Part shown: one piece after another, positions 31,234 to 61,834 of the stretch
How positions within the stretch are numbered: the stretch's first letter is position 1
Layout of the letters: the number at the start of each line of letters is the position of its first letter
Source: Gammaproteobacteria bacterium
GTDB lineage: Bacteria > Pseudomonadota > Gammaproteobacteria > Nevskiales > Nevskiaceae
Direction: 5' to 3'
Length of the DNA stretch: 64,000 nucleotides
Assembly (NCBI GenBank): GCA_016182805.1
Contig: JACPFV010000013.1
Span: 1-64,000 of the forward strand
Translations under genes and position numbers: made by a program
The notes under the pieces: model-generated
Database searches by the model: none
What the model saw: only the letters and a program-made list of their open reading frames with translations
Told to the model about the DNA's origin: nothing

Positions 31234-34329
<3,096 letters not shown>

Positions 34330-61426: not shown

Positions 61427-61455
61427 TGCGACGGGCCGCGCATTTCGGCTAGAAT
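61427..61455 (+). promoter_or_regulatory. Probable tRNA-Ser promoter
   Basis: TAGAAT at 61450-61455 with TGCGAC 17 bases upstream and a GC-rich discriminator (GCGCGCCC), as in stringently controlled tRNA promoters. The first tRNA-Ser 5' fragment begins about 30 bases downstream; the intact tRNA begins 287 bases downstream. Confidence 0.5.
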
Positions 61456-61484: not shown

Positions 61485-61499
61485 GGAGAGGTGTCCGAG
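61485..61499 (+). pseudogene. tRNA-Ser 5' fragment 1
   Basis: GGAGAGGTGTCCGAG, identical to the first 15 bases of the intact tRNA-Ser at 61742. It lies where a tRNA would be expected relative to the promoter, but the sequence then diverges. Confidence 0.7.
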
Positions 61500-61597
61500 G
61501 GCGGGGGCTGTTGGCGAGGCCAGGAAGGCCGAGCTTACAGCCAGCTTCAACCACGAGAGCGTTGAAGCATCGATTTGCTGGAGAGGTGTCCGAGTGG
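61495..61597 (+). repeat. Tandem direct repeat, copy 1, ending in tRNA-Ser 5' fragment 2
   Basis: 103 bp identical to 61657-61759, at a period of 162 bp. It contains GGCC-AGGAA-GGCC, the hairpin GCTTCAAC...GTTGAAGC (61544-61568) and, at its end (61580-61597), the first 18 bases of tRNA-Ser. The 59 bases between copies (61598-61656) hold a long hairpin, GGCGCCGC with inner CGCGAGC-ACT-GCTCGCG (61602-61638). Confidence 0.8.
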
Positions 61598-61656
61598 GTG
61601 AGGCGCCGCGCCTCGCGAGCACTGCTCGCGGCGGCGCCGAACGCCTGAGGCAGGAG

Positions 61657-61759
61657 CCGAGGGCGGGGGCTGTTGGCGAGGCCAGGAAGGCCGAGCTTAC
61701 AGCCAGCTTCAACCACGAGAGCGTTGAAGCATCGATTTGCTGGAGAGGTGTCCGAGTGG
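61657..61759 (+). repeat. Tandem direct repeat, copy 2, running into the intact tRNA-Ser
   Basis: Identical to 61495-61597. Its final 18 bases are the start of the functional tRNA-Ser (61742-61759). Confidence 0.8.
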
Positions 61760-61834
61760 TTGAAGGAGCACGCCTGGAAAGCGTGTATACGGTCACAAGC
61801 CGTATCGCGGGTTCGAATCCCGCCCTCTCCGCCA
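61742..61834 (+). tRNA. tRNA-Ser (anticodon GGA)
   Basis: 93 nt including an encoded CCA. Acceptor stem GGAGAGG pairs with CCTCTCC (61824-61830), G discriminator, long variable arm (TATACGGTCACAAGCCGTAT region) as in class II tRNAs, T-loop GTTCGAATC, anticodon GGA at 61776-61778. It reads UCC/UCU. Confidence 0.95.

Follow-up and report, generated by a model that had tools for sequence, protein, structure and literature searches.

Two tandem units in a tRNA-Ser gene, very probably from insertion of a dispersed hairpin-rich repeat with a target duplication restoring the gene

In this study, we examined a 64,000-nt stretch of DNA (the window) from a draft assembly of 65 contigs that is 80% complete, in which a tRNA-Ser(GGA) gene is preceded by copies of its own beginning. 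The 15-nt 5' end of the gene, GGAGAGGTGTCCGAG, starts at 61485, 61580 and 61742; the second copy is longer, with 18 nt ending in TGG, and the last alone runs into a full tRNA, the single intact one found at the locus by ARAGORN and Rfam. Positions 61495-61597 are identical to 61657-61759 over 103 bp, at a spacing of 162 bp, and 257 bp of extra DNA (61485-61741) lie between the beginning of the first copy and the intact gene. This confirms the extra tRNA 5' ends of 15 and 18 bases and the exact repeat of 162-bp period reported in the original prediction. Among the local direct repeats of the 64-kb window the 103-bp repeat is unique of its kind, the runner-up being a 23-bp match within a coding stretch, and the region folds much more strongly than its shuffles (z = -6.6). 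The features of the locus are as follows, where element denotes the repeated body and R1 the covariance model built from element copies.

61450-61455, forward strand: -10-like box TAGAAT, the putative original tRNA-Ser promoter, judged from sequence and from spacing in relatives
61485-61499, forward strand: first tRNA-Ser 5' copy, 15 nt, an exact repeat of GGAGAGGTGTCCGAG, probably at the ancestral position and forming the left target duplication
61500-61579, forward strand: element copy 1, headless, beginning after CCGAG and identical to 61662-61741
61580-61597, forward strand: second tRNA-Ser 5' copy, 18 nt, an exact repeat ending in the D-loop GG
61598-61741, forward strand: element copy 2, complete, GTGAGG...TTTGCT, matched by model R1 at 61596-61654 (E = 6.6e-7)
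61615-61629, forward strand: inner head hairpin GCGAGCACTGCTCGC, with 7 exact copies in the genome against 0 for a reversed-pattern control, and with covarying pairs
61643-61664, forward strand: variant second hairpin CCT-GA-GGC-AGGA-GCC-GA-GGG, seen in the sequence in place of the usual CCGGCCATGGATGGCCGG
61668-61704, forward strand: hairpin GGCTGT...GAGGCCAGGAAGGCCGAGC...ACAGCC, from sequence and fold
61707-61729, forward strand: tail hairpin CTTCAAC...GTTGAAG, from the fold, in the locus-specific tail
61742-61834, forward strand: intact tRNA-Ser(GGA), probably restored by the right target duplication (ARAGORN; Rfam RF00005, 59 bits)

The motif CCGAG is shared by the tRNA 5' copy and the interior of the element. 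Element copy 2 has 110 bp in common, at 80% identity, with an element before murG, where the hairpin at 61668-61704 shows a compensatory change to GGTTCT...AGAACC; the variant second hairpin module is also found in the first murG element and in L006.

Comparison with relatives indicates which of the three tRNA starts is the original one. The nearest -10-like box in relatives lies 17-64 nt upstream of the tRNA, mostly 30-51 nt. Since TAGAAT stands 35 nt upstream of the first 5' copy, as in the relatives, the first copy would be the original tRNA start and the 257 bp an insertion, which agrees with the earlier suggestion that promoter and tRNA would be normally spaced without them. No extra tRNA 5' copy was found at any of 19 tRNA-Ser(GGA) loci from other genera (L009-L027; 18 of the same family and one of another, with less than 600 bp readable upstream for L009 and L012), and the leader of the relatives is without any repeat body; the unit is thus not an ordinary conserved tRNA leader.

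Other arrangements were observed at tRNA-Ser genes of other families. In G052 (locus L038) a diverged hairpin element, GGGCGAG..., is flanked by the same 18-bp tRNA-Ser 5' duplication, which occurs there twice, apparently an independent use of the same tRNA-Ser target. In genus g17 of the sister family f6, one or two extra tRNA-Ser(GGA)-like genes lie upstream of the intact gene (L028 1385-1930; L029 1373-1763; L030 1063-1222; L031 2122-2300; L032 1179-1342; L035 1222-1403). Most have their own TACAAT-like box upstream; they retain both acceptor and anticodon arms, apart from a few changes at the ends of the acceptor, and carry a hairpin insert of 80-170 nt exactly in the T-loop, the variable arm being enlarged in some. 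They are either pseudogenes or genes for a tRNA-like RNA.

A genome search found the insert body at unrelated loci of the same genome, the best match being the ftsW-murG junction, where the murG start occurs three times with two different elements between and the last copy alone runs into murG. The repeat is dispersed, non-coding and structured, about 90-175 bp long, and has two conserved hairpins and a GTGAG start placed after a target GG. Sixteen aligned copies share the order GGGTGAG, an outer stem around a variable inner hairpin, GAACGC and CCGGCCATGGATGGCCGG, with at least one compensatory change at 17 of 23 base pairs. A CsrA-type GGA loop was considered and dropped, as the loop is not strictly GGA. 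Model R1 found 27 copies in the draft source genome, 9 of them adjoining tRNA genes, and detected the element in 38 of 61 related genomes with a maximum of 59 copies per genome, several members of the same family having none. A 29-bp core recurs exactly in more than 116 stretches of named Lysobacteraceae and Nevskiales, including Luteimonas, Lysobacter, Pseudoxanthomonas, Xanthomonas, Stenotrophomonas, Solimonas, Nevskia and others, these genus names for element hosts coming from the core search alone. Copies flank tRNA-Gly, tRNA-Ser(CGA), tRNA-Ser(TGA), tRNA-Arg and tRNA-Pro, or come after stop codons. In all clean cases the 5' start (GTGAG) is conserved and the 3' tail variable. The tail of the tRNA-Ser element has no second place in the genome, and the tails of six G000 elements gave only self-matches and weak matches of 14-17 bp (E above 2) in a genome search, and the idea that they are donor flanks carried along was rejected. 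Only tRNA was matched by Rfam in the window, no other family passed the threshold in eight element loci, and no description of the element was found in the open-access literature.

Replication slippage, by which a hairpin-rich tRNA leader would be duplicated in tandem with no mobile element involved, could draw on the 103-bp identity of the two units, on hairpins that favour slippage, and on comparable tandem units at ddl, mutL, tRNA-Pro and, in the diverged form of the element, tRNA-Ser of G052. However, the repeated body lies at unrelated loci and in other genera, and the relatives' leader lacks it. Slippage is contradicted by these dispersed copies and would hold for the second step only, so that as an account of the whole locus it is unlikely. 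Arrays of three to five head-to-tail elements at a spacing of about 118-120 bp were also observed in Lysobacteraceae (L260-L339; for example, L333 1513-1824, L263 6340-6882 and L296 7563-7988).

The short-read origin of the 65-contig draft would be compatible with an assembly artefact, but the same anatomy recurs in dozens of genomes, isolates and complete chromosomes among them, and the two units differ in that the first is without the head hairpin. Misassembly, one of the explanations offered earlier, is accordingly barely credible. Another was an integration scar. tRNA genes are classic attachment sites, and partial tRNA copies do flank the insert, as might be expected of the scar of a tRNA-targeting genomic island or phage. 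The inserts, in contrast, are non-coding and only 90-175 bp long; they occur at the 5' as well as the 3' end of tRNAs, and also at protein genes (murG, ddl, purA, mutL, ftsZ), and neither an integrase nor an att repeat derived from the tRNA 3' end was found. The search proposed in the original prediction for the unit elsewhere bore out one half of the expectation, since other tRNA-Ser genes carry the element, and not the other, neither the tRNA-Ser unit nor the exact core having a match among phages, plasmids and viral contigs. A scar in the tRNA-integrase sense is therefore highly improbable.

Insertion after GG at a staggered break that is then filled in predicts that the sequence preceding the element is found again behind it. 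In a right-anchored repeat test (score 12 or more, with mismatched pairs as controls), such target duplications were found at 10 of 46 elements and at 0 of 358 controls, and, with gaps allowed, at 19 of 104 against 6 of 411; independent named genomes gave 11 of 82 against 0 of 809. Some of these counts take in units of tandem arrays and thus not all are independent insertions. The duplications vary in length from 15 to 310 bp (the gene names other than tRNA being a reading of translated ends): 15-20 bp at tRNA-Ser, Gly, Arg and Pro; 26-39 bp at ftsZ ends, a terminator, murG and a second tRNA-Pro; 54-78 bp at a lytic-transglycosylase-like 3' end, ddl, purA, mutL, ubiG and SRP RNA; and, the longest, 310 bp at 94% identity in a cinA-like gene. 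Where the case is clean, GG closes the left duplication and (G)TGAG or GCGAA opens the element. The duplication restores the essential gene, tRNA or terminator that was struck (murG, ddl, purA, mutL, ftsZ, tRNA-Gly, Arg, Pro and Ser), and the anatomy of the tRNA-Ser locus is repeated at tRNA-Gly, tRNA-Arg, two tRNA-Pro, two more tRNA-Ser and murG.

About 85% of element copies are without a target duplication. Given that most copies lack one, and that copies at the 3' ends of genes frequently cut the gene short and bring in a TGA stop, insertion does not always entail a duplication. Duplications are seen mainly where something is rescued; their presence at tRNAs and essential genes is accounted for by survivorship. 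Three sites in genus g7 illustrate the range. At the first, G027 has the element, flanked by the two copies of a duplicated terminator arm, and the site is empty in G032; the second is filled in G027 and G007 and empty in G018 and G032; at the third, filled in G027 only, the last codons are cut off and a TGA is supplied, with no visible duplication. Filled and empty sites within one genus imply that insertion has been recent and repeated. The element start was often observed exactly at a gene end, the TGA of GGGTGA being the stop codon, as at L099 (a sucCD-like junction), L085 (after nqrF), and L103 and L206 (after an rtcB-like gene). The frame of this TGA is open upstream in 102 of 155 cases, against 80 and 59 for the other two frames.

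It might be asked whether the tRNA 5' copies and hairpins were kept as a leader that regulates tRNA-Ser supply. The strong fold would suit this, as would the recurrence of tRNA-Ser(GGA) 5' copies with other inserts in the sister family (L028-L032, L035, L038). At murG and ddl, moreover, the reading frames of the relic gene starts continue across the element and end 4 or 8 nt into the real start, in the manner of translational coupling (L002 1480-1769; L125 1440-1649; L186 371-583, reverse strand). On the other side, the relic starts at mutL and purA are closed at once by the element TGA, so that the notion of relic starts always being kept translated holds for murG and ddl and fails for these two; and a role specific to tRNA-Ser leaves unexplained why the same element is also found behind stop codons and at many genes of other kinds. 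We regard a regulatory leader as quite improbable.

The 257 bp very probably consist of two tandem units of this dispersed, non-coding, hairpin-rich mobile repeat, inserted in tRNA-Ser with a target duplication that restored the gene. This is in line with the earlier proposal of an insertion after the tRNA 5' end followed by duplication, now backed by a dispersed family with the same anatomy at many loci. Comparison of the loci shows that an element with the GTGAG start was placed directly after the GG of the tRNA D-loop, and that the 18 bp from the first tRNA nucleotide to this GG lie on both sides, as from a filled-in staggered break; through this 18-bp duplication the intact tRNA stays downstream. 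The element and the duplicated tRNA end may then have been duplicated in tandem, and the head of the first copy may have been lost by deletion between CCGAG repeats. The 103-bp identity is what suggests a tandem duplication as the last step, the alternative being two separate insertions. The tRNA would be transcribed with a leader longer by about 257 nt and trimmed by RNase P, presumably retaining its function. In Lysobacterales and Nevskiales, numerous tRNAs and essential genes seem to be struck by the same mode of insertion, the survivors being those in which the duplication spans the gene boundary.

With regard to what moves the element, we favour a nuclease or transposase acting in trans and cutting after GG, a plausible reading that falls somewhat short of probable. 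Template switching during replication at GG microhomology comes second, as a tentative possibility, and an RNA or cDNA route third, as a doubtful one. Equally doubtful is a SINE-like or template-switch element, in which a short structured sequence would be copied via RNA or single-stranded DNA into DNA nicked after GG, the 3'-GG of the nick pairing with the complementary end of the element; were this true, duplications could be of any length, and essential genes and tRNAs could be colonised without death of the host. No autonomous partner was found among RAYT, reverse transcriptase and IS1634 transposase genes. R1 had no match in 30 Y1_Tnp loci, and RAYT counts do not track the element: G021 (59 copies) and G014 (26) are without Y1_Tnp, and G005, G006 and G017 have Y1_Tnp and no copies, so that RAYT as mobiliser was rejected for lack of co-occurrence and of linked loci. 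RVT_1 is present in 20 of 61 genomes and absent from the element-rich G036, G003, G022 and G032, which speaks against a reverse transcriptase as far as present-day gene content goes, past presence being possible. An IS1634 transposase exceeded the cut-off in G021 and G060 only, of 61 genomes, and was rejected as mobiliser, being absent from nearly all element-rich genomes.

The element resembles several known systems in part. Like REP/SMAG repeats, it is dispersed, palindromic, intergenic and abundant in Xanthomonadaceae and relatives (PMC3733652, PMC2817692). REPs, which are associated with RAYT (Y1) transposases, are 20-40 bp long and mostly have a GTAG or CGTC end (PMC3733652, PMC2817692), whereas the element, with about 90-175 bp, several hairpins, a GTGAG start after a target GG and long target duplications, is no 20-40-bp palindrome with such an end, and none of the RAYT loci examined carries it, nor do RAYT counts follow it. 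In IS1634/IS1549, target duplications are long and variable (8-514 bp), and the review offers no model of the mechanism (PMC2266710). The element shares long variable duplications (15-310 bp) with these; in contrast to their transposase genes of 1.5-2 kb with terminal inverted repeats, it has no gene and no recognisable inverted repeats, and the transposase is missing from nearly all genomes rich in it. Like MITEs, it is short, non-coding, presumably moved in trans and flanked by target duplications, but it has neither their terminal inverted repeats nor their short duplications of fixed length. The likeness to eukaryotic SINEs is an analogy only: the element, known here from DNA sequence, is short, structured and non-coding, with variable target duplications and a defined insertion end as in retroelements, and unlike SINEs it has no reverse transcriptase that tracks it. 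Rickettsia palindromic elements are palindromic inserts too, tolerated in-frame inside genes, and are not known to come with gene-restoring duplications.

The damage to serS pointed out in the original prediction is real insofar as the gene is split by a single frameshift (window 31267-32581), with the N-terminal part and the first catalytic half in frame 1 and the remainder of that domain in frame 3. In line with the remark there that the coincidence with the tRNA-Ser locus may be chance, serS is without the element; the frameshift is either a draft-assembly error or a real lesion, with no link to the element.

In the open-access literature, only IS1634/IS1549 are on record with long, variable target duplications, without a mechanism. 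Here a non-coding repeat has such duplications in two bacterial orders, where the ends of essential genes, of tRNAs and of the SRP RNA are affected, which suggests a way for a mobile repeat to enter essential genes and yet spare them. Dozens of natural filled and empty sites are available for working out the mechanism, and where these genomes show tRNA pseudo-ends or duplicated gene starts, insertion footprints rather than errors are to be read in them.
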